A DNA stretch of 42,295 nucleotides from contig CAMXBD010000009.1 of assembly GCA_947179245.1 (NCBI GenBank), positions 1-42,295 on the forward strand, read 5' to 3'. Below the pieces are notes generated by a model. That model searched no databases. It saw only the letters and a program-made list of their open reading frames with translations, and was not told where the DNA came from. This DNA is from an uncultured Lachnospiraceae bacterium (lineage in GTDB: Bacteria > Bacillota > Clostridia > Lachnospirales > Lachnospiraceae). A program made the position numbers and the translations under genes. This document shows positions 8,002 to 35,370 of this stretch, piece after piece (position 1 is the first letter of the stretch; every line of letters begins with the position of its first letter).

Positions 8002-8535
8002 TCACTTTGTGTCTTTCATAACGTCCTTATTTTTTGCCAGATAATCCACTAAAGATACTACCGTCAATATGAGCGCTGCCCACATGACGATTCCAGTAAG
8101 CAGGTTTAAGGCAGGAATGTCTGCAATCATAAGACAGATCATGACCATCTGAAAAGTGGTCTTAAATTTCCCCCAGTAACTTGCCGCGATAACTACGCCA
8201 TTGTCTGACGCAATCAATCTGAATCCGCTGATAATAAACTCTCTGGCAATAATAATGATCACAATCCATGCCGGTATCTTATTGAGCGCCACCAGACAAA
8301 TCAGTGCGGAACATACCAGAAGTTTATCCGCCAAAGGGTCCATAAATTTACCGAAATTTGTCACCAGATTATATTTTCTTGCAATCTTGCCATCCAGCAG
8401 ATCCGTCAGACTGGCAATGATAAAAATCACAAGTGCGATCCACTTATCTACCGTTGTTATGTAAACTAACATAAACACCACGAAGAATGGAATCAATATT
8501 ACGCGAAACATCGTTAACTTATTAGGTAAGTTCAT
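8002..8535 (-). CDS. pgsA: CDP-diacylglycerol-glycerol-3-phosphate 3-phosphatidyltransferase
   Basis: This 177-residue integral membrane enzyme makes phosphatidylglycerophosphate from CDP-diacylglycerol and glycerol-3-phosphate, the committed step to phosphatidylglycerol and cardiolipin. The CDP-alcohol phosphotransferase signature is intact: DGKIAR, then eight residues, then GKFMDPLADK. Several hydrophobic helices surround it (about 10-35, 80-100, 125-165). I place the start at the ATG at 8535 (MNLPNKLTMFRV), which has GGAGAG seven bases upstream and overlaps the end of rimO by 14 bases. The upstream in-frame ATG at 8550 would add five residues and has no comparable ribosome site. Confidence 0.95.
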   Translation of the reverse strand: MNLPNKLTMFRVILIPFFVVFMLVYITTVDKWIALVIFIIASLTDLLDGKIARKYNLVTNFGKFMDPLADKLLVCSALICLVALNKIPAWIVIIIIAREFIISGFRLIASDNGVVIAASYWGKFKTTFQMVMICLMIADIPALNLLTGIVMWAALILTVVSLVDYLAKNKDVMKDTK

Positions 8536-26741: not shown

Positions 26742-27260
26742 TTAATTTCGGTATTGAAGACGTATCTTGTCCGCAATCAGTGCAATAAATTCCGAATTTG
26801 TGGGTTTACCCTTACCTGTGTTGATCGTGTATCCGAACAACGCATCTAATGTCTCCATTCTTCCTCTCGACCACGCCACCTCGATTGCATGTCTGATTGC
26901 ACGCTCCACGCGGCTCGGCGTTGTCTGATATTTCTTCGCTATGGTAGGATACAGTACTTTTGTGATGGAACCCAGCATCTCCACATCCTGTACAGACATC
27001 ATAATTGCCTCTCTCAGATACTGATAGCCTTTGATATGCGCAGGCACACCGATCTCATGTATCATATCCGTCACATCTTTTTCCAGATCGCGTGTCACAC
27101 TTGTCTGTATCATCGTATCAGCTATCTTCACATCTTCCTCTTTAGTTCCTGAGGGAACGGTTATCATGATCTGAAACTCCTTATTGGCGCTGATCAGGTT
27201 ATTCAGAATTCTGTAAAATTGTTCTTCATCTCTCGATGCTGTCACGTTTAATGTTTCCAT
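26742..27260 (-). CDS. Spo0A C-terminal-domain protein lacking a receiver domain
   Basis: This 172-residue protein's C-terminal two-thirds (about 58-172) match the Spo0A effector domain. Features include [52 protein letters not shown] (the helix that reads 0A boxes) and [19 protein letters not shown]. The first 57 residues replace the receiver with a short segment ([23 protein letters not shown]) lacking the Asp and Lys of a phosphorylation site. The ATG has GGAGGAG nearby, and an in-frame stop lies six codons upstream, so this is not a truncated view of a longer gene. It may act as a phosphorylation-independent paralogue of Spo0A. Confidence 0.88.
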
Positions 27261-27391: not shown

Positions 27392-27994
27392 CTATTCAGA
27401 CAGGTCAATCATTCTTGTCGCAATCCTTTCCGCAAGATGTTTATTATGCGTAACTGCAATAATTCCCATATTGCGCTTATCTGCTTCCTCCAAAACCACA
27501 TTCCAGATCTGTGCCTGCGTGATTACATCCAACATAGTGCTGATTTCATCACATATGAGATAGTCTGCTCCACTCATCAACGCTCTCGCCACACAGAATC
27601 TCTGCAGTTCTCCGCCGGACAGCTCCCGCGGAAATCTGTCAAGCCATGCCCGTTCGATTCCAAAGGCATCTAGCACATCCTCCCGAAGCTTTCCACTCTC
27701 TTCCAATACGCGTTTCAGTCTCCAGCGGGGATTGACCGCCTTTTCAGGGTGCTGGTAAATCAGTTGAACGGGACAGATCCCCTTTGCAGGCAGCGGCTTA
27801 TCATCCAGCAGGATTTCACCCTTCTCCGGTTTCAAATAACCTGCCAAAAGCAAAGCAAGCGTTGTCTTTCCGTAACCGCTTGGCGCAGATACTGCCAGAC
27901 GCTCTCCCCTATCAATCTTCAAAGTACAGTCTTCAAGAATCCATGGCTGCTTCCTGCCATATCGGAAATAAATATTCTTCGCTTCAAGCGCCAT
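27392..27994 (-). CDS. Nickel/peptide ABC importer ATPase, second subunit (NikE/OppF-like)
   Basis: This 200-residue ABC ATPase is shorter than the usual 250-330 residues because it lacks the C-terminal oligopeptide domain. Walker A reads APSGYGKTT, with Ala in place of the first Gly. The signature is LSGGELQRFCVARAL and Walker B is DYLICDEISTMLD, followed by VTHN at the H loop. The start overlaps the preceding ATPase gene by 11 bases, with an AGGTG site. It is the last gene of the lar-nik operon and should form the asymmetric ATPase pair with the gene before it. Confidence 0.85.
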   Translation of the reverse strand: MALEAKNIYFRYGRKQPWILEDCTLKIDRGERLAVSAPSGYGKTTLALLLAGYLKPEKGEILLDDKPLPAKGICPVQLIYQHPEKAVNPRWRLKRVLEESGKLREDVLDAFGIERAWLDRFPRELSGGELQRFCVARALMSGADYLICDEISTMLDVITQAQIWNVVLEEADKRNMGIIAVTHNKHLAERIATRMIDLSE

Positions 27995-28919
27995 AATAAC
28001 ACCTCACTTCGCCGCCCCTGATTTCACGCACCGGCGGTACGGCATCCATGCATTGTGCTGTTTTGTAAGGACAACGCGGCGCATACAAACAGCCTTTTGG
28101 CAGTGCCCCGGCGTAAGGCTGAAAACCACAGACAGGCTGGAATCCATTTTGCGGCAATGCTCTCCACAAAGCCTGAGAATAAGGGTGCCTCAACGCATCG
28201 GGACCTTTTTTGAAATCGGATGCCAAGGCTGTTTCTACGGTAGTTCCTGCGTAAAAAACAGCAACTCTGTCCGTAAACTCAAATGCCAGATCAAGATCAT
28301 GGGTTATCAGAATAACCGCTTTACCATCGTCTGCCATTTCACGAAACATCCTCAGCGCCTCAAGCGCCTGTTCAAGACTCATGCCGGGTGTCGGCTCGTC
28401 CGCAATCACAAGCTTGGCATCTGTGAGCAAAGCTGTAGATACCAAAGCACGCCTTGCCATACCGCCGGAAAGCTGAAACGGATAGAGCTGTTCCGTTTTA
28501 TCCGGAAGTCCCAATCGTTTAAAAATACTTTTCCGCTTGTCTGTCGGCAGCGGTTTACGATGTCCGTCCGCCTGTGCGCCTACCTTCATCAACGGATCAA
28601 GAAACGCAACTGACTGCGGTACAAGCGCTATATCCGTTCCCCGAAGCTGTTCCTGCCGTTCCTGCGTCAATTCCTGCCCCTTATAGTGCAGATGGCCATG
28701 TACTGTGGCATTACCGGGCAGAATACCTAAAATGGCAGAAGCCAGCAGACTTTTTCCCGAGCCGGAAGAACCAGCAACAGCAACAATCTCACCGGGATAT
28801 ACTGTCAGATACAGGTCGGAAATTACCTGAAGATCCGTTTGTTCCAAGCCGTGATCGTACATCCTGAAGGAGACGGACAGATCATGAATTTCCAATATAG
28901 TTTCATCTTTTTGTTTCAT
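27984..28919 (-). CDS. Nickel/peptide ABC importer ATPase, first subunit (NikD/OppD-like)
   Basis: This 311-residue ABC ATPase has Walker A GSSGSGKS at about 55-62, a Q loop in ALVPQSVAFLDP, signature LSGGMARRALVSTAL, Walker B LVIADEPTPGMS and an H loop in LITHDLD. The C-terminal oligopeptide-transporter domain shows the Cys pattern GCLYAPRCPYKTAQC. The gene begins 10 bases after the permease stop, behind AAGGAGA. The substrate class cannot be fixed from the ATPase, but the operon with larE, larB and larC points to nickel or a nickel chelate. Confidence 0.88.
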   Translation of the reverse strand: MKQKDETILEIHDLSVSFRMYDHGLEQTDLQVISDLYLTVYPGEIVAVAGSSGSGKSLLASAILGILPGNATVHGHLHYKGQELTQERQEQLRGTDIALVPQSVAFLDPLMKVGAQADGHRKPLPTDKRKSIFKRLGLPDKTEQLYPFQLSGGMARRALVSTALLTDAKLVIADEPTPGMSLEQALEALRMFREMADDGKAVILITHDLDLAFEFTDRVAVFYAGTTVETALASDFKKGPDALRHPYSQALWRALPQNGFQPVCGFQPYAGALPKGCLYAPRCPYKTAQCMDAVPPVREIRGGEVRCYYGA

Positions 28920-28929
28920 AATAGTCTCC

Positions 28930-29754
28930 TTAATCCTGTGCGCTGTAAGGATCCATGATCATCCGCAGGTTATCTCCCAATTTATCCACTAGCAGAACGA
29001 TCAGCACAAGTGTCAGTCCGGGCAGCACTGCAGACCACCACATACCCGTCTGGATATACCGCATACTTTCTGAAAGAATGATACCGATGGCAGGCTGTTC
29101 AGGCGGCAGTCCAAACCCCAAAAAGGAAACAGATGCTTCATGCAGAATCGCATGAGGAAACAATAAAATTAACCCTACAACAAATTGAGGTACCAAATGA
29201 GGCAGCAAATGATGCACCAATATCCATCCGCCGGATTTTCCAAGCTTACGGGATACCGCTACATATTGCTGAGAACGAAGCTGCAAAACTTCACCTCTGA
29301 TCAGACGTGCAAGACTGCACCAGTGTGTAGCAGCAATTCCAACAAGTAATCCTTTTAACCCCCGTCCCAGAGCAAAGGAAATAAGTATAACGAGAATCGT
29401 ATGCGGAACACCCATCACAACATCAATGAACCAGTTAATTAAGGCATCCACACACTTTGAACCGGTGGCAGCTGCAATTCCGACAAAAACAGCAATCACC
29501 GCGCTGATCATAGAAGCAGCAGTTCCTACCGTCATGCTGACAGCCATTCCTTTCAGGGTACGCAGAAACAAATCACGTCCCAGCGCATCGGTTCCGAAGG
29601 GATGTGCCAATGAGGGCGGCTGCTTTGCGCTCAGAAAACTACCCACCACAGCATCATCGGGAATTAACAGTCCGAAAGAGAATACAGCAATCAAAATAAT
29701 TGTCATAAAAGCAGTCAGGATAACAACCTGTGTACGGCGATTTAAGTTTCTCAT
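28930..29754 (-). CDS. Nickel/peptide ABC importer permease (NikC/DppC-like)
   Basis: This 274-residue membrane permease has an N-terminal helix (VVILTAFMTIILIAVFSFGLL) and the DppC/NikC opening AHPFGTDALGRDLFLRTLKG. The EAA-type loop includes AVSRKLGKSGGWILVHHLLPHLVPQ. The ending DKLGDNLRMIMDPYSAQD is typical for this subunit. The ATG overlaps the previous stop by four bases, with AGGAGG seven bases upstream. It pairs with the NikB-like permease as the heterodimeric channel. Confidence 0.9.
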   Translation of the reverse strand: MRNLNRRTQVVILTAFMTIILIAVFSFGLLIPDDAVVGSFLSAKQPPSLAHPFGTDALGRDLFLRTLKGMAVSMTVGTAASMISAVIAVFVGIAAATGSKCVDALINWFIDVVMGVPHTILVILISFALGRGLKGLLVGIAATHWCSLARLIRGEVLQLRSQQYVAVSRKLGKSGGWILVHHLLPHLVPQFVVGLILLFPHAILHEASVSFLGFGLPPEQPAIGIILSESMRYIQTGMWWSAVLPGLTLVLIVLLVDKLGDNLRMIMDPYSAQD

Positions 29755-30746
29755 CCGCCCACCTCCTGAATCTGCGGATCAATGATTCCGTAAAGCAGAT
29801 TTGCAATCATATTACCAATGGCGACAAATAACGCAGAAAACAAAGTCACGCCGAGAAGCAAAGGTACATCAGAATTTAATCCTGCAGCAGCTGCCGCACT
29901 GCCGAGTCCGGGATAGCTGAACACATTCTCCGCCATGACCGAACCGCCGAACAATTCCGCAAAAGATGCAAACTGTAACGTCAGCGCAGGAAGAAGAATG
30001 TTCCGTAGTCCGTGGCGGCGAAGAATTGTCCACTTCCTTTCGCCCCTCGCCCTCGCAAACAGAACATATTCGCTGTTCAGAACATCCACTAACTTCTGAC
30101 GGGTATGCAGTGCAATATTGGCAAAAGACATGAAGGCCAATGTAAAAGCCGGCAAAATCAAATGATGAAGTTTCTCCCAAACAGTTATGTCCTTATCAAG
30201 AACTCCAATGGGTCCGGAAAATCCGATTGGAAACCATTTCAGCCATACAGAAAATACCAGAAGAAAAACCAGTCCAAGCCAGAAGGTTGGAATAGAGCTG
30301 ATAATATAACATACTTTTTTCAAAATCTTATCCGGTAATCTGTCCTGATACATTCCCATGACACATCCGATAAAGAAACCGATCACACCTGACAGCACCC
30401 ATGCGCACAACATCAACGCAAGTGAATTTACAAACCGCTCCCCGATGATATCCGCAACAGGTCTCCTGTATATAGCTGATTCGCCCATATTACCCTTCAC
30501 AAGTTCTGACATCCAGCCAACATAACGTTCTACCAGCGGTTCATTCACACCCCAATATTCTTCGATTTGCGTTCGTTGTTCAGGAGAAACGGCAGTGCCA
30601 AGTCCCATAATATATTGCCGTACCGGATCAATCGGTGATACACTGACCAGTACAAATGTAATAACGCTTACCGCTAATAACAGAGTAATGATTCTGATGC
30701 CATATGTAGCGAAAATGTGAATTAACCGCCTAGTAGTCCTTTTCAT
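29751..30746 (-). CDS. Nickel/peptide ABC importer permease (NikB/DppB-like)
   Basis: This 331-residue permease starts at the ATG at 30746 (MKRTTRRLIHIFATYG), with GGGAGGAG seven bases upstream and four bases between the binding-protein stop and the start. An in-frame ATG at 30773 would overlap the previous gene by 23 bases and lacks a site. Landmarks are ISVSP-like VSVSPIDPVRQYIMG, then SSIPTFWLGLVFLLVFSVWLKWFPIG and the EAA loop EYVLFARARGERKWTILRRHGLRNILLPALT. The ending NLLYGIIDPQI is the classic DppB/NikB end. It forms the channel with the NikC-like subunit. Confidence 0.9.
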   Translation of the reverse strand: MKRTTRRLIHIFATYGIRIITLLLAVSVITFVLVSVSPIDPVRQYIMGLGTAVSPEQRTQIEEYWGVNEPLVERYVGWMSELVKGNMGESAIYRRPVADIIGERFVNSLALMLCAWVLSGVIGFFIGCVMGMYQDRLPDKILKKVCYIISSIPTFWLGLVFLLVFSVWLKWFPIGFSGPIGVLDKDITVWEKLHHLILPAFTLAFMSFANIALHTRQKLVDVLNSEYVLFARARGERKWTILRRHGLRNILLPALTLQFASFAELFGGSVMAENVFSYPGLGSAAAAAGLNSDVPLLLGVTLFSALFVAIGNMIANLLYGIIDPQIQEVGG

Positions 30747-30750
30747 GACA

Positions 30751-32337
30751 CTACTCCTCCCAAGTCCACTCATGCAGGTTCTGAATCAACGGCAAACCGT
30801 GGCCATGACCATGAACCGGCTGTTCTCCGATAGAAAGACCGTCCCGGACATAGGTGACATGATCCAGATTGACAATCCATACCCACGGACATTCACCCTG
30901 CATGGCAGTACCGGTAGTGCCATCCCACTGTACTTTCTGCCAGTTTGCATTGGCATCTTCTACCGTCAGGGCTTCCATAGCTGCATCAAGATAACCATCA
31001 GTCACATCATTCCTGTACCCTTCAGGATTATAGAAATCATCAAGAAGAGCCCCTTCGGAACGATACAAGTAATAAGTCTCGTTAGGAATCGCAGAACCCC
31101 AGCCCATCATAACAGCTTCGGAGAACATCCGCTGTGTAATTTCATCCCAGCTTGTACCTTCCACATTAATCTGGATACCGATTTCCTTTACCTGCTCTGC
31201 CGCTGCCATGGCAACAGCCTGACGCACCGAGTCTCCGGACGGATATACACAGGAAAACTCCGCTTTCAGACCATCTTTTTCAACGATCCCGTCCCCATCG
31301 ACATCAACCCATCCTGAATCTGCAAGCAGTTTCTTTGCATATTCCACATCAGTCTCTATTACCACCTCTGGATTGTTCCACGGCATACTATCGTTTTCAG
31401 AATAAGCAGGTCTGCCAAAACCGTTCAGTACAGCATCGGCAATCTGCTGTCGGTCGATTGCATAAGCAATCGCCTGACGGATTTCAAGATTACAGGTTAC
31501 ATCGTTTCCTATGGGTGCTCCATTTTCCGCAGTCTTACCCTCACTAGGCAACACAGGAAGAGTAAATCCACGATTATCCGCAGAAGTAATCGCTTCAACA
31601 TGATAACCATCCACCTTAGCCGTGCCGAGAGTCGCTGTAGAATATGCAACATCGACCTCTCCTGCCTGAACTGCTGCAAGCGCGGCATCCTCGGACATAA
31701 ACACAACCGTTACATTCTTAATTGCGGGAGTCCCGCCATAGTAGTCTTCATTAGCGGTAAAGACAATCTGTTCCTGTGCTTTCCATTCAACAAACTTATA
31801 AGGACCGGAGCCGATGGGATTCATGCCATAATCTTCACCGTAAGCGTGTCTGGGCACGATACCGACAGAAGCAATCGTGTTAAGGAAAATGGAGGTAGGC
31901 TTCGACAGCGTAACGACAACCGTTGTATCATCCTGTGCAACGGCGCTTTCCATATAGGTCAGGTCTACAGATCCTTGCGCCGCCTTGGCTGTTTCCAGCG
32001 TGAAAGCTACATCGGCAGCGGTAACTTTCCCGCCATCGGTGAATACGGCATCATCACGAACGGTAAATGTCCATGTCAGACCATCATCTGACAATTTGTA
32101 TCCGGTCGCCAGATCATTCTCAAAAGTCAGATCGGCAGTGTACTTTACCAGAGTGCTCTGGACAATAGGTGAATTGCCGTGTCCCCAGCCCTTAGTGGGA
32201 TCAAGTGTTTCAGGTTCCGAACCAATAGCTATGATCACACTGTCTTTAGTCGTTGCAATATCATGATTACCACAGGCGGTTATCATCAAAAGTATAGCTG
32301 CTATCAGAACTAATGTTGATATTCTCTTGATATTCAT
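30751..32337 (-). CDS. Nickel/peptide-binding lipoprotein (NikA/SBP family 5)
   Basis: This 528-residue extracellular binding protein has a lipoprotein signal peptide and lipobox ITAC (Cys22). The mature part opens with the SBP_5 pattern IAIGSEPETLDPTKGWGHGNSPIVQSTLVKY and contains GSGPYKFVEWKAQEQIVFTAN. The C-terminus holds a His/Gly cluster (VHGHGHGLPLI) just before NLHEWTWEE, which could contribute metal ligands. It is translationally coupled to larC by a four-base overlap, behind GGAGG. It most likely binds nickel or a nickel complex for import; a peptide substrate cannot be excluded from sequence alone. Confidence 0.87.
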   Translation of the reverse strand: MNIKRISTLVLIAAILLMITACGNHDIATTKDSVIIAIGSEPETLDPTKGWGHGNSPIVQSTLVKYTADLTFENDLATGYKLSDDGLTWTFTVRDDAVFTDGGKVTAADVAFTLETAKAAQGSVDLTYMESAVAQDDTTVVVTLSKPTSIFLNTIASVGIVPRHAYGEDYGMNPIGSGPYKFVEWKAQEQIVFTANEDYYGGTPAIKNVTVVFMSEDAALAAVQAGEVDVAYSTATLGTAKVDGYHVEAITSADNRGFTLPVLPSEGKTAENGAPIGNDVTCNLEIRQAIAYAIDRQQIADAVLNGFGRPAYSENDSMPWNNPEVVIETDVEYAKKLLADSGWVDVDGDGIVEKDGLKAEFSCVYPSGDSVRQAVAMAAAEQVKEIGIQINVEGTSWDEITQRMFSEAVMMGWGSAIPNETYYLYRSEGALLDDFYNPEGYRNDVTDGYLDAAMEALTVEDANANWQKVQWDGTTGTAMQGECPWVWIVNLDHVTYVRDGLSIGEQPVHGHGHGLPLIQNLHEWTWEE

Positions 32338-33605
32338 TTGAGTTCCTCCACAAGCGAAGCCGCTTCTGAGATGCTTATACCCTTCTCTCTCGCAATACGC
32401 GAAAGATCATCATATTCGTATTTTCTGCGCGTGGCACCATAGCCGGACGAAACCTTGAAACGAACTGCACCGTAAGGTGTCTCAATCGTTTCGATATGGC
32501 GTTCAAGCACATAACGCCGGAGCGTGCTTTCCCGAATACCAATAGTTGTTGTATACTTGAAAACTATTTGAATCATAGCTTCCTTATCCGCCCTACGGCA
32601 CATGATACGGATGAGAATGCCGGGGCGGGACTTTTTCATGCCAATCGACACTGTATACACGTCAAGGGCTCCTGCAGCAAAAAGACGTTCTGTGGCAAAA
32701 CCGATCTCTTCACCGGTCATATCATCCACATTACAGCTCAGCTCACAAACCTCATCTCCTGCTTGCTCTGTTTCACCCAGCATCGCTCTGACACAATTTA
32801 CTTCTTCAAAGTCCTTCTTTCCCATACCATAGCCGATTGCCTGTATTTTCATAACAGGCATACTGTCAAATCTGGCTGCAAAATGTTTCAGCAAAGCCGC
32901 ACCGGTAGGCGTACACAGTTCACCCCTGACACTTCCGCCATAAATGGGCACGTCCTTGAGAATATGAGCCGTCGCAGGCGCCGGAACAGGAAGAATGCCA
33001 TGTGCGCATCTGACCTGACCGCTGCCGACATGGATAGGTGAAACAACGACTTCGTCCGGCGACAGGCGGCCAATCAGCATACAGACCGCCGTGATATCAG
33101 CAATCGCATCCATGGTTCCTACTTCATGGAAGTGTATCTCAGTCATCGGAACACCGTGCACATGGCTTTCCGCTTCTGCGATCAGCCTGTACACTGCCAT
33201 CACATCATCCTGCACTTTCTGCGATAAAGAAAGATGTCCTCTAATGATGTGCTCAATATCATGCAGACTGCTATGGTGGTGATGCGCGTGGTGATGCGCG
33301 TGGTCATTCTCATGACTATGATCGTCATGGAAATGATCGTGTTCATGGTTCACGTGACAATGTTCGTGCCCGTGTTCATGATGATGGTCATTGCTTTCTT
33401 CTTCCTCACCATTTACCGTTACAGTCATATGTGTTCCCGTAATACCGCATTTTACAGACGGCTCTTTCGTGAACTGCACGCCGGGAATACTAAGGTCGTT
33501 CAGCTCTTTTACAAATTCATTGGGATCAGGCAACAGTTCCAGTAATGCCGCTGTCAGCATATCGCCTGCCGCACCCATTCCACAGTCCAAATATAATGTC
33601 CGCAC
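32334..33605 (-). CDS. larC: Nickel-pincer nucleotide biosynthesis nickel insertase LarC
   Basis: This 423-residue protein inserts nickel into pyridinium-3,5-bisthiocarboxylic acid mononucleotide in a CTP-dependent reaction, giving the NPN cofactor. It opens MRTLYLDCGMGAAGDMLTAALL, the LarC/DUF111 signature, and contains EIHFHEVGTMDAIADI and ELCTPTGAALL. Residues 74-111 contain 21 histidines, a probable nickel store. Both LarC halves are in one uninterrupted frame, unlike Lactiplantibacillus plantarum, where a programmed frameshift joins larC1 and larC2. The start is GTG, with AAGGAGG seven bases upstream, two bases after larB. Confidence 0.95.
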   Translation of the reverse strand: MRTLYLDCGMGAAGDMLTAALLELLPDPNEFVKELNDLSIPGVQFTKEPSVKCGITGTHMTVTVNGEEEESNDHHHEHGHEHCHVNHEHDHFHDDHSHENDHAHHHAHHHHSSLHDIEHIIRGHLSLSQKVQDDVMAVYRLIAEAESHVHGVPMTEIHFHEVGTMDAIADITAVCMLIGRLSPDEVVVSPIHVGSGQVRCAHGILPVPAPATAHILKDVPIYGGSVRGELCTPTGAALLKHFAARFDSMPVMKIQAIGYGMGKKDFEEVNCVRAMLGETEQAGDEVCELSCNVDDMTGEEIGFATERLFAAGALDVYTVSIGMKKSRPGILIRIMCRRADKEAMIQIVFKYTTTIGIRESTLRRYVLERHIETIETPYGAVRFKVSSGYGATRRKYEYDDLSRIAREKGISISEAASLVEELK

Positions 33606-33607
33606 TC

Positions 33608-34369
33608 TTATGCCTCCTTCTTTCCATTCATGTGATTAATCATATTGGCTAAATATCCTGCACCGAAACCGTTATCAATATTGACAACCGATACACCGCT
33701 GGCACAGGAGTTAAGCATAGACAAAAGTGCCGAGAGACCGCCAAACGACGCACCGTAACCGATACTTGTCGGGACAGCAATGACCGGACAATCGGCAAGC
33801 CCGCCGATCACGCTGGCAAGTGCACCCTCCATTCCCGCAATGGCAATGATAACACTGGCGCCCATAATATCATCAAGATGAGCAAGTGTCCGGTGAAGTC
33901 CGGCAACACCGACATCATACAGACGGACTACCTCATTACCAAGAATCGCGGCTGTCAGCGCCGCCTCTTCTGCCACCGGAATATCACTTGTACCACCTGT
34001 GGCTACAACGATCTTACCGATTCCATCCGGAACAGGCATCTGCCCGATTATTCCGCAACGGGCATCCTTATAGTAATCCATAGGATGTGCCTGACTGACA
34101 ATCGCAGCGGCCTCTTCGGTAAGACGGGTAATAAGAATGGTATTTTGTCCATTTTTCAACATTGTCTTGGCAATTCCGATGATCTGTTCAGGTGTTTTTC
34201 CCGCACCGTAAATCACCTCCGCCGTTCCCTGACGCAGTTTTCGATGCATATCAACCTTTGCGTAGCCGATATCCTCAAACGGCTTTATTTTCAGTTTCAA
34301 GAGCGCATCATCGATAGAAACACTTCCATCGCTGACACCCTCCAATAATCTTCTGATATCAGTATTCAT
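33608..34369 (-). CDS. larB: Pyridinium-3,5-biscarboxylic acid mononucleotide synthase LarB
   Basis: This 253-residue protein carboxylates and hydrolyses nicotinic acid adenine dinucleotide, the first step to the nickel-pincer cofactor. The C-terminal half (about 120-250) is PurE-like, with VVATGGTSDIPVAEEAALTA, GVAGLHRTL and VIIAIAGMEGALASVIGGL. The N-terminal third contains YGAGKTPEQII. The ATG overlaps the larE stop by four bases, and its ribosome site lies in the larE tail. Length and order (E, B, C) are consistent with a complete cofactor pathway. Confidence 0.95.
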   Translation of the reverse strand: MNTDIRRLLEGVSDGSVSIDDALLKLKIKPFEDIGYAKVDMHRKLRQGTAEVIYGAGKTPEQIIGIAKTMLKNGQNTILITRLTEEAAAIVSQAHPMDYYKDARCGIIGQMPVPDGIGKIVVATGGTSDIPVAEEAALTAAILGNEVVRLYDVGVAGLHRTLAHLDDIMGASVIIAIAGMEGALASVIGGLADCPVIAVPTSIGYGASFGGLSALLSMLNSCASGVSVVNIDNGFGAGYLANMINHMNGKKEA

Positions 34370-35112
34370 CCTCTCACCTCCAAATCCAGTGATACAGTCT
34401 TATAATATTCTTTCAGTTTAGCCAGAATATCCTTACGATGCTCCATCAAAAGCCCTATCTGTGCCTCCGGCACTTGAAGCCGTGCATGCCCTTCCTGCGA
34501 ACGTACACGAAAATCTGTAAATCCAAGAGAAAAGAGATAATCCTCTGCGATCTCCGTTGCGGACAGTTTATACGTGGTAATTTCTTCGCCAGTTGGAATT
34601 CTCGTTGCAAGGCAGGCATATGCGGGCTTATCCCACGTAAATAATCCTGCTTCTTCGGAAAGCTGACGAATCTGTGATTTGGTCAATCCACATTCCCGAA
34701 GCGGAGAAAGAACCGATAACTCTGACAAAGCGCGCATACCCGGACGATCACCGGCATCATCAGAAGCATTTGTTCCGTCCAGAAGAACCGTAAACCCATC
34801 TGCCCCAGCAGCAGACGTGATTGCACTAAAGATTGCCCTTTTACAGTAATAGCATCGATCAGATGGATTGGCACTTACATTGGGAACAGAAAGCACATTC
34901 AGCGTAAGTACCTTCATGTCTGCCCCCAGCTCATCCGCCAGCCGTACTGCATCGTCTAATTCAAATTGCGGCTGAAATTCGGATTTCACATAGTAGGCTT
35001 TCACTTGATGTGCATATTTTACCGCCGCATAAAGAAGATAAGCGGAATCCACCCCGCCGGAAAATGCTATCGCTGCCCTTGGATATTGTTCAAAGAACTC
35101 CTGTATAGTCAA
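34366..35112 (-). CDS. larE: ATP-dependent sacrificial sulfur transferase LarE
   Basis: This 248-residue PP-loop enzyme adenylates the LarB product and replaces carboxyl oxygens by sulfur. The PP-loop is FSGGVDSAYL (about 17-26), and LLDGTNASDD matches the family. A single Cys (167) lies in KPAYACLATRIPTG, where the L. plantarum enzyme has its sacrificial Cys; other cysteines are 87, 90 and 141. The start is a TTG at 35112, behind GAGGTG with five bases between. No ATG fits: the nearest upstream ATG is in another frame and closes at once. It is the first gene of the operon. Confidence 0.93.
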   Translation of the reverse strand: MTIQEFFEQYPRAAIAFSGGVDSAYLLYAAVKYAHQVKAYYVKSEFQPQFELDDAVRLADELGADMKVLTLNVLSVPNVSANPSDRCYYCKRAIFSAITSAAGADGFTVLLDGTNASDDAGDRPGMRALSELSVLSPLRECGLTKSQIRQLSEEAGLFTWDKPAYACLATRIPTGEEITTYKLSATEIAEDYLFSLGFTDFRVRSQEGHARLQVPEAQIGLLMEHRKDILAKLKEYYKTVSLDLEVRG

Positions 35113-35336
35113 ATAATCACCTCAATTTCATAAGAATAAAAATGCCCTTCCACTTTGTTCTCAACGCCTTTTGGCATTCGAATCCTATAAAGACAATAAG
35201 ACACACATATCCCCTTCTGAGGATTTGTGTGCCTTCTAAGCATACTGTTTACGATATATCACATTGTTTACAACAATACAAAATTCAATATTACATCTTA
35301 GCGCTTCGGCGCTGTTATCGACAGCTTCCTGCTGTC
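35113..35336 (-). promoter_or_regulatory. Hairpin-rich leader of the lar-nik operon
   Basis: This is the noncoding stretch between the candidate start point and larE. On the minus strand it contains, in order, GACAGC/GCTGTC (35336-35320), AGCGC/GCGCT (35313-35300), ATTGTT/AACAAT (35277-35263), an 11-bp stem with one mismatch (35231-35202, ending TGTGTGTCTTATTG) and AATGCC/GGCGTT inside a repeat (35187-35163). A direct repeat TGTTTAC occurs at 35246 and 35265 on the plus strand. I do not recognise a known riboswitch, but five stems in 225 bases suggest regulation by RNA structure or by a regulator site. Confidence 0.45.
35163..35187 (-). repeat. Diverged copy of the 4824-4894 repeat arm
   Basis: On the minus strand it starts TAGGATTCG and contains CAAAAGG. 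Of 25 positions, 20 match the arm that starts at 4821, and all five differences are transitions. Its own AATGCC/GGCGTT part can fold. Confidence 0.6.
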
Positions 35337-35342
35337 TTAGAT

Positions 35343-35370
35343 ATTGTACACTATTTAAATGAAAAGTCAA
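35343..35370 (-). promoter_or_regulatory. Sigma-A promoter of the lar-nik operon
   Basis: On the minus strand TTGACT (35370-35365) and TACAAT (35348-35343) are 16 bases apart. The start point would be near 35336, about 225 bases before larE. The -35 touches the foot of the hairpin at 35370-35400 that ends the upstream glycosidase operon. Confidence 0.65.

Follow-up and report, generated by a model that had tools for sequence, protein, structure and literature searches.

What does a bacterium do with a nickel cofactor, and with a linked importer that most likely supplies the nickel, when no gene for the enzyme family known to use the cofactor is found beside them? The question is raised by a stretch of 42,295 nucleotides (contig CAMXBD010000009.1, positions 1–42,295, assembly GCA_947179245.1) from an uncultured bacterium of the Lachnospiraceae, a family frequent in the gut; this whole stretch is called the window here. 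On its minus strand, positions 27392–35112, eight open reading frames encode LarE, LarB and LarC, which belong to the synthesis of the nickel-pincer nucleotide (NPN), and an importer of the ATP-binding cassette (ABC) type. To our knowledge, racemases and epimerases of the LarA family are the sole enzyme family known to use NPN. No larA adjoins the operon in the window, as the original prediction had stated. We consider it quite probable that the operon is a self-contained NPN supply unit, with nickel import of the YntA type, control by a leader RNA and a client outside the LarA family. The leader RNA, which the original prediction did not mention, is the most novel element of the locus.

The lar genes and the linked importer

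The predicted composition of larE-larB-larC followed by a lipoprotein, two permeases and two ATPases is confirmed by the open reading frames, by Pfam matches and by curated cut-offs (Table 1). The junctions, in order from larE to ATPase 2, are -4, +2, -4, -23, -4, +10 and -11 nt. The -23 value is found only with the longest open reading frame of permease 1; its probable true start, 30746, is preceded by the better ribosome site GGGAGGAG and gives a junction of +4. Spacing thus supports the proposal of one operon and suggests that the lar and importer genes share one transcript. When all eight genes are compared with those of the relative G057, nonsynonymous divergence (dN) is 0.04–0.09 and synonymous divergence (dS) is 0.73–0.98. 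Because dN is far below dS, all eight genes are under purifying selection and the operon is no relic.

LarE, LarB and LarC all score above curated cut-offs, so their assignment to NPN synthesis stands; the biosynthetic gene set is complete in one locus and NPN is the predicted product in this strain. LarC passes the curated cut-offs for both LarC1 (211.7 bits, cut-off 90) and LarC2 (146.6 bits, cut-off 50), and 22 histidines lie within its residues 67–116. The window LarE displays CYYC...C, which matches the CXXC-C motif whose cysteines are tied to a [4Fe-4S] cluster in the available part of PMC9283937; the L. plantarum LarE described there has, in contrast, a single sacrificial cysteine.

The nearest solved relatives of the binding protein are both Yersinia YntA (3ry3, E = 3.6e-109; 4ofl, E = 1.9e-108). 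The oligopeptide binder AppA is a far weaker match (E = 1.9e-43), and the grouping with peptide binders that would speak for another solute is not seen. The protein fails the NikA equivalog cut-off (TIGR02294, 144.5 bits vs 393) and is classed as YntA-type on the strength of this failure and of the nearness of YntA. The original description of the importer as Nik/Opp-like therefore holds for the superfamily but not for NikA. A YntA-like binding lipoprotein, two permeases and two ATPases make up the composition of YntABCDE, which the accessible text of PMC2667541 treats as a distant nickel ABC transporter recognisable by its gene neighbourhood. The window importer shares binding protein and five-gene composition with the Yersinia system and is here linked to NPN synthesis. 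Its relatives and its linkage make nickel the most likely solute, as had been predicted.

The linkage was followed in 77 genomes of the genus, of which 45 contain LarC. The 45 larC loci read consist of three with a YntA-type importer (Y), 28 with a NikZ-type importer (Z), nine with a pair of small membrane genes, m135-m105 (M), and five with neither, among them the two short contigs L073 and L080. A nickel-type ABC importer, Y or Z, is therefore found in the lar cluster of 31 of the 45 LarC-positive genomes. Among the Z importers 26 lie beside larC and two lie upstream of larE, at the other end of the cluster. The Z binding protein has 8efz and 4oet as nearest solved relatives, the latter being presumably Campylobacter NikZ; the type of the Campylobacter NikZYXWV system is thus found at the same place in 28 genus genomes and not in the window. 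A GHHG motif near the C-terminus is kept in the 28 Z loci and is perhaps the 'HH-prong' named in a cited title, and [VI]HGHGHG is kept in all eight Y-type binding proteins read.

When the window binding protein is used as a query (E ≤ 1e-40), 16 places are found, all 16 directly beside larC. The Z binding protein (E ≤ 1e-60) gives 29 places, 28 of them in a lar cluster; the 29th is a fragment at a contig start in G053, a 66%-complete genome with no LarC match, and one of the 29, in G043, has an in-frame stop. Apart from the G053 fragment, LarC-negative genomes show no Y or Z binding protein at these thresholds, nor do the nine m135-m105 genomes. One M locus, L081, has a distant Opp-type importer 1.4 kb upstream of m135, and its binding protein shares 22% identity with the Z type.

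On a quick tree of 55 LarC rows the Y, Z and M labels require at least three changes, the least possible being two, which weakly suggests more than one importer exchange. There the window LarC falls among Y-type relatives from other named genera, outside the Z clade of its own genus; transfer or misbinning of the window contig is therefore possible. G057 and G032 carry the same type as the window.

In L. plantarum, larA-E are accompanied by the LarMNQO nickel transporter. There too LarB, LarE and LarC make NPN and a nickel transporter is linked, but the window has instead an importer of the peptide/nickel ABC family, and no LarA is found.

The leader RNA upstream of larE

The region between larE and the next open reading frame, 303 bp, holds a promoter-like site and a leader RNA. 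Promoter-like matches are common in the window (26 found vs 14.9 expected by chance); similar sites precede the leader in relatives. The window leader, 35113–35345, folds better than shuffled sequences (z = -4.38). An alignment with four relatives shows kept blocks between larE and the gene for a DUF3842 protein, and a pattern search finds similar hairpins ahead of Z- and M-type operons.

The 5′ hairpins (24 sequences) are paired in 96.5% of cells, display double changes in 12 of 12 pairs, and give a covariation score of 0.893 vs 0.309 for shuffled alignments and no more than 0.161 for slid versions. Their loops are mostly AGGAA, ACGAA, AAGAA or AGAA. The 15-pair stem of the 3′ module (14 sequences) is paired in 92.4% of cells, with double changes in nine of 15 pairs and a score of 0.495 vs 0.342 shuffled, a value reached in none of 500 shuffles. 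The antiterminator arm can pair with the 5′ side of this stem, and here the evidence is weaker, with 88.1% of cells paired, double changes in a single pair, and a score of 0.233 where a two-column slide gives 0.234. The segments behind these scores were cut by eye from leaders that show hairpins, which favours structure.

Matches of two covariance models to leaders outside the training sets are independent of this cutting. The model R1 represents the 3′ module, and R2 was made from another part, the 5′ module. With R1, 67 loci yield 44 sense sites at E ≤ 2.2e-4 (14 training, 30 beyond), and 39 of the 45 genus larC loci have such a site. R2 finds 35 sites at E ≤ 0.02 (24 training, 11 beyond), all in leaders found by R1; the R2 sites in L068 and L088 overlap the R1 site. 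Elsewhere in the 1.12 Mb searched, R1 gives no site up to E = 10, the other rows being on the opposite strand or a second row for the L081 leader, and the best R2 match off-site has E = 0.19. The leader stands upstream of a lar, importer or m135 gene at 47 of 47 tabulated sites and at none of 24 larA loci. No further site is found in the bacterium's own genome among 20 stretches and L079 (416 kb, about 12%; best E = 0.51).

With covarying pairs before the first gene and a terminator-like stem, the leader is, as judged from its sequence, a predicted structured cis-regulatory RNA with an attenuator, and it probably controls the operon. Like the riboswitch and leader families of Rfam it would be a cis-acting structured RNA before metal genes; unlike them, the leaders of the window and five loci have no match at gathering score in Rfam 15, where only a tRNA in L081 is found. 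Among the papers listed, titles and the opening parts of abstracts yielded no description of a lar or nickel-pincer leader RNA, and PMC5640608, in its available text, treats other riboswitches.

The best reading is that of an attenuator responsive to nickel or to the cofactor. Transcription would probably start about 225 nt upstream of larE and run through the leader, where an array of GAA-loop hairpins and the antiterminator may compete with the terminator stem. The antiterminator loop carries GAAG, as do both upstream hairpins, and these shared GAAG-like loops suggest a single ligand or protein that reads all three hairpins. The leader is found with two nickel importers, with m135-m105 and with the NPN genes; what links them would be nickel or NPN, whose status may set import and synthesis jointly through the leader. 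That plenty of nickel closes the leader is an economical guess. The YntA-type importer would take in Ni(II), probably as a small chelate, and LarB, LarE and LarC would form NPN from nicotinic acid adenine dinucleotide, sulfur and nickel. A broader proposal, that the leader is a new class of cis-regulatory RNA sensing nickel or NPN, that NPN synthesis, two nickel importers and m135-m105 form one regulon, and that NPN has an undiscovered client other than LarA, is put forward tentatively, as somewhat less than an even chance.

Table 1. Features of the operon and its leader region in the window.
Feature	Coordinates	Strand	Evidence
Promoter-like site, sigma-70 type, TTGACT-16-TACAAT	35343..35370	-	10/12 matches; best minus-strand site, precedes larE
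Leader 5′ module, tandem hairpins H1 (GACAGC-AGGAA-GCTGTC) and H2 (AGCGC-CGAA-GCGCT)	35297..35336	-	R2 E = 6.6e-8 (window is a training sequence)
Leader 3′ module, antiterminator arm and 15-pair terminator-like stem	35193..35245	-	R1 E = 2.2e-11 (window is a training sequence)
larE, sulfur insertase	34366..35112	-	TTG start; SGGVDS and CYYC...C; TIGR00268 256.2 bits, cut-off 150
larB, carboxylase/hydrolase of NPN synthesis	33608..34369	-	NF033503 285.8 bits, cut-off 175
larC, nickel insertion, single open reading frame	32334..33605	-	GTG start; PF01969 E = 2.2e-140; TIGR00299 and NF052512 above cut-off
YntA-type binding lipoprotein, C-terminal VHGHGHG	30751..32337	-	YntA 4ofl E = 1.9e-108; Pfam SBP_bac_5
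Permease 1	29751..30773, probable start 30746	-	PF00528 (BPD_transp_1)
Permease 2	28930..29754	-	PF00528 (BPD_transp_1)
ATPase 1, oligo_HPY C-terminal region	27984..28919	-	PF00005 (ABC_tran), PF08352
ATPase 2, short (200 aa), without oligo_HPY match	27392..27994	-	PF00005 (ABC_tran)

LarA, the client of the cofactor and competing explanations

The source genome (G000; 87.6% complete, 233 contigs) gives no match to the LarA model NF033504, and the search for LarA homologues with PF09861 (Lar_N) yields only a DUF362 ferredoxin at E = 9.8e-5, below cut-off. PF09861 is matched in 57 of the 77 genus genomes at E ≤ 0.001 and in only four at E ≤ 7.8e-42 (G008, G048, G061 and G074, all LarC-positive). 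A match in the LarC-negative G023 (E = 4.5e-9) is not counted as LarA. The remaining matches are short, end near position 194 and have E ≥ 1.1e-5; the one at L001 is DUF362, and 20 further loci read as DUF362, one of them without the motif. No LarA-family gene is thus found in 41 of the 45 LarC-positive genus genomes, that of the window included. The original prediction had offered a LarA elsewhere in the genome, or another LarA-family racemase or epimerase as client; the latter also needs a Lar_N protein, and in these genomes neither proposal is borne out.

The pattern is seen in the better assemblies as well: of 39 genus genomes at least 90% complete and at most 5% contaminated, 25 have LarC and three of those have LarA. 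A sample of 299 genomes of the family, with LarA taken at E ≤ 1e-12 and one LarC match below cut-off (G093) dropped, contains LarC in 186, LarA in 63 and both in 48, so that 138 of the 186 show no LarA at this threshold. Among family genomes of the same quality, 113 of 158 have LarC without LarA. NiFe hydrogenase is found in none of the 77 genus genomes, nor is nickel CO dehydrogenase above cut-off (one match in G042 lies below it). Since this genome and most LarC-positive relatives are without a detectable LarA and the genus is without these two nickel enzymes, the user of NPN is probably a protein that does not belong to the LarA family.

The absence of LarA beside NPN genes is a published open question, sharpened here and not discovered. 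In the portion of PMC11796402 consulted, larB, larE and larC without larA are reported for about 15% of genomes, and NPN proteins other than LarA are inferred; the same absence is seen here, but in a genus of the Lachnospiraceae where a nickel importer is linked and an RNA leader is shared. The consulted text of PMC2667541 notes 10 organisms that have nickel transporters but in which no nickel protein is known. Clustering of the open reading frames that flank the larC loci gives no partner enzyme common to the Y, Z and M classes. The clusters, found mainly at Z loci, consist of trigger-factor-like proteins, AsnS, a peptidoglycan hydrolase, a chemotaxis receptor and a few regulator-like genes, in addition to DUF3842.

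Several observations weigh against a leader-controlled NPN supply operon with a client outside the LarA family. The missing LarA is read in an incomplete, fragmented genome. The four LarA-bearing genus genomes have the same Z-type operon (L052, L054, L061, L083), and for this reason the operon alone cannot tell the client. LarC and LarA are loosely coupled in either direction in the family sample, where 15 of the 63 LarA genomes give no LarC match (e.g. G091, G155, G273); these may be relatives that do not use NPN, users of imported cofactor, or assembly gaps. NPN need not be the sole nickel sink, as the search for nickel enzymes covered NiFe hydrogenase and CO dehydrogenase; urease, Ni-glyoxalase I and others would be further candidates. 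The lar-importer neighbourhood, which the original prediction proposed to tabulate, is seen in the 31 genus loci given above and is uncommon in the wider family: in 40 larC loci chosen from the listed matches (20 of the 138 LarC-positive LarA-negative genomes and 20 of the 48 with both), an importer adjoins larC in four (L193, L204, L212, L222). The terminator scan of the window gives eight terminator-like sites vs 7.4 expected, none in a junction, and does not call the leader stem at 35193–35245, which has an imperfect T tail in the window. Both leader models started from seeds chosen by eye, any terminator would share part of the R1 stem, R1 has no match in L002 (Y-type) or L051 (Z-type), and one leader matches CsrB at E = 7.8e-4.

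The client would be an ordinary one if a LarA-family racemase were present in an assembly gap or too diverged. The incomplete assembly, the four genus genomes that have LarA beside the lar-importer operon and the 48 of 186 LarC-positive family genomes with LarA are in keeping with this, but LarA is also missing from 22 of the 25 LarC-positive genus genomes of high quality, a pattern that a gap does not explain, and the search detects the Thermotoga and Methanosarcina controls. A hidden LarA is accordingly regarded as unlikely. The DUF362 ferredoxin as client is a very improbable alternative, although it displays the spacing of H174, K184 and H200 of LarA and a weak Lar_N match, and clan CL0471 unites the LarA and DUF362 families in the text available of PMC11770544. 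Of 21 DUF362 loci read, 20 contain H-x9-K-x15-H (the exception, L157, is LarC-positive), as do 21 of the 25 scanned loci with LarA or Lar_N, the other four giving no row with the pattern used. DUF362 occurs in 72 of 77 genus genomes regardless of LarC, and all 10 of the LarC-negative genomes that were read retain the spacing; since the site is kept where the cofactor cannot be made, DUF362 is unlikely to need NPN, and it was ruled out as a specific NPN partner. The copy in the source genome that keeps this spacing is at L001:940-2064 (minus strand, contig C33).

Transport of a peptide, cobalt, an NPN precursor or NPN itself is unlikely, to about the same degree as a hidden LarA. The superfamily is broad, and the binding protein matches Opp4A (134.2 bits) and reaches no equivalog cut-off, but its nearest solved relative is nickel-binding by a wide margin, and the second binding-protein type, near 8efz and 4oet with GHHG kept, is at the same place in 28 genomes, the common trait being nickel. 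The leader might instead be an array of sites for an RNA-binding protein, CsrA-like or of the antiterminator kind, with no sensing of its own; this is a possibility to be taken seriously, if a doubtful one. It would account for the repeated hairpins with AGGA/AGAA loops. A permissive Rfam search with three leaders gives sub-threshold matches only, the best being CsrB (E = 7.8e-4; 19.7 bits, gathering 71) and RsmY (E = 0.011; 18.6 bits, gathering 57), which come from two leaders and belong to one clan, and CRISPR-DR33 (E = 0.013). The CsrA signature is GGA in hairpin loops. GGA is not kept here, the loops being AGGAA, ACGAA, AAGAA or AGAA by locus and many lacking the signature, and regulator-like genes are found only in subsets of Z loci (six GntR-like and four DeoR-like, names given by reading), none across the classes.

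Neighbouring genes and meaning for the lineage

The m135 and m105 genes, at L081:7683-8090 and 8112-8429, encode two small hydrophobic proteins; neither matches a Pfam family, nor an NCBIfam model above cut-off. They adjoin larB or larC in nine genus genomes where Y- and Z-type importers are absent, and in L100 m105 adjoins hypB. At least 95% of 40 m135 sequences, a set selected with a pattern containing WHGE, keep FEH ahead of WHGE. In the family sample m105 is present in 40 of 299 genomes, six of them without LarC. The pair is a candidate new nickel importer. In most m135-m105 loci larE is replaced by a second LarE subfamily that shares about 38% identity with the window LarE (L081:10575-11402, L095, L097 and others), and a corrinoid activator of the RACo type adjoins m135-m105 at L112:1812-3302.

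DUF3842 (PF12953), a protein of about 135 aa with GGGIG and HC motifs, is found at L004:7775-8194, L007:7664-8077, L086:2817-3218 and other places. It is near lar or m135-m105 at 13 distinct loci (on the opposite strand in L058), and in six of the 40 family loci it lies no more than a few kb from lar. In several Y- and M-type loci it lies upstream of the leader and not behind it, and it also occurs with m135-m105 alone. Its AlphaFold model from four sequences has a predicted local distance difference test score (pLDDT) of 55, which is too low to search for similar folds; the search for a solved relative found none (best E = 0.034), nor was there any mention in the literature searched. DUF3842 was set aside as a shared partner, as it is not found in the window and stands upstream of the leader; it may be a protein of nickel or NPN metabolism or use.

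Directly downstream of the operon, at 26742–27260 on the minus strand, the window encodes a 172-aa protein that has only the C-terminal DNA-binding domain of Spo0A (TIGR02875, 207.3 bits, cut-off 200).

The lineage thus appears to keep an NPN pathway that is intact, under selection and supplied with nickel, mostly without LarA. The leader RNA is a sequence tag for tracing the rest of the regulon and possibly the missing enzyme, and it would be a new sensor class if it binds nickel or NPN, in which case m135-m105 would be a candidate new nickel importer. If the regulon is as proposed, the other targets of the leader would point to an undiscovered NPN enzyme.

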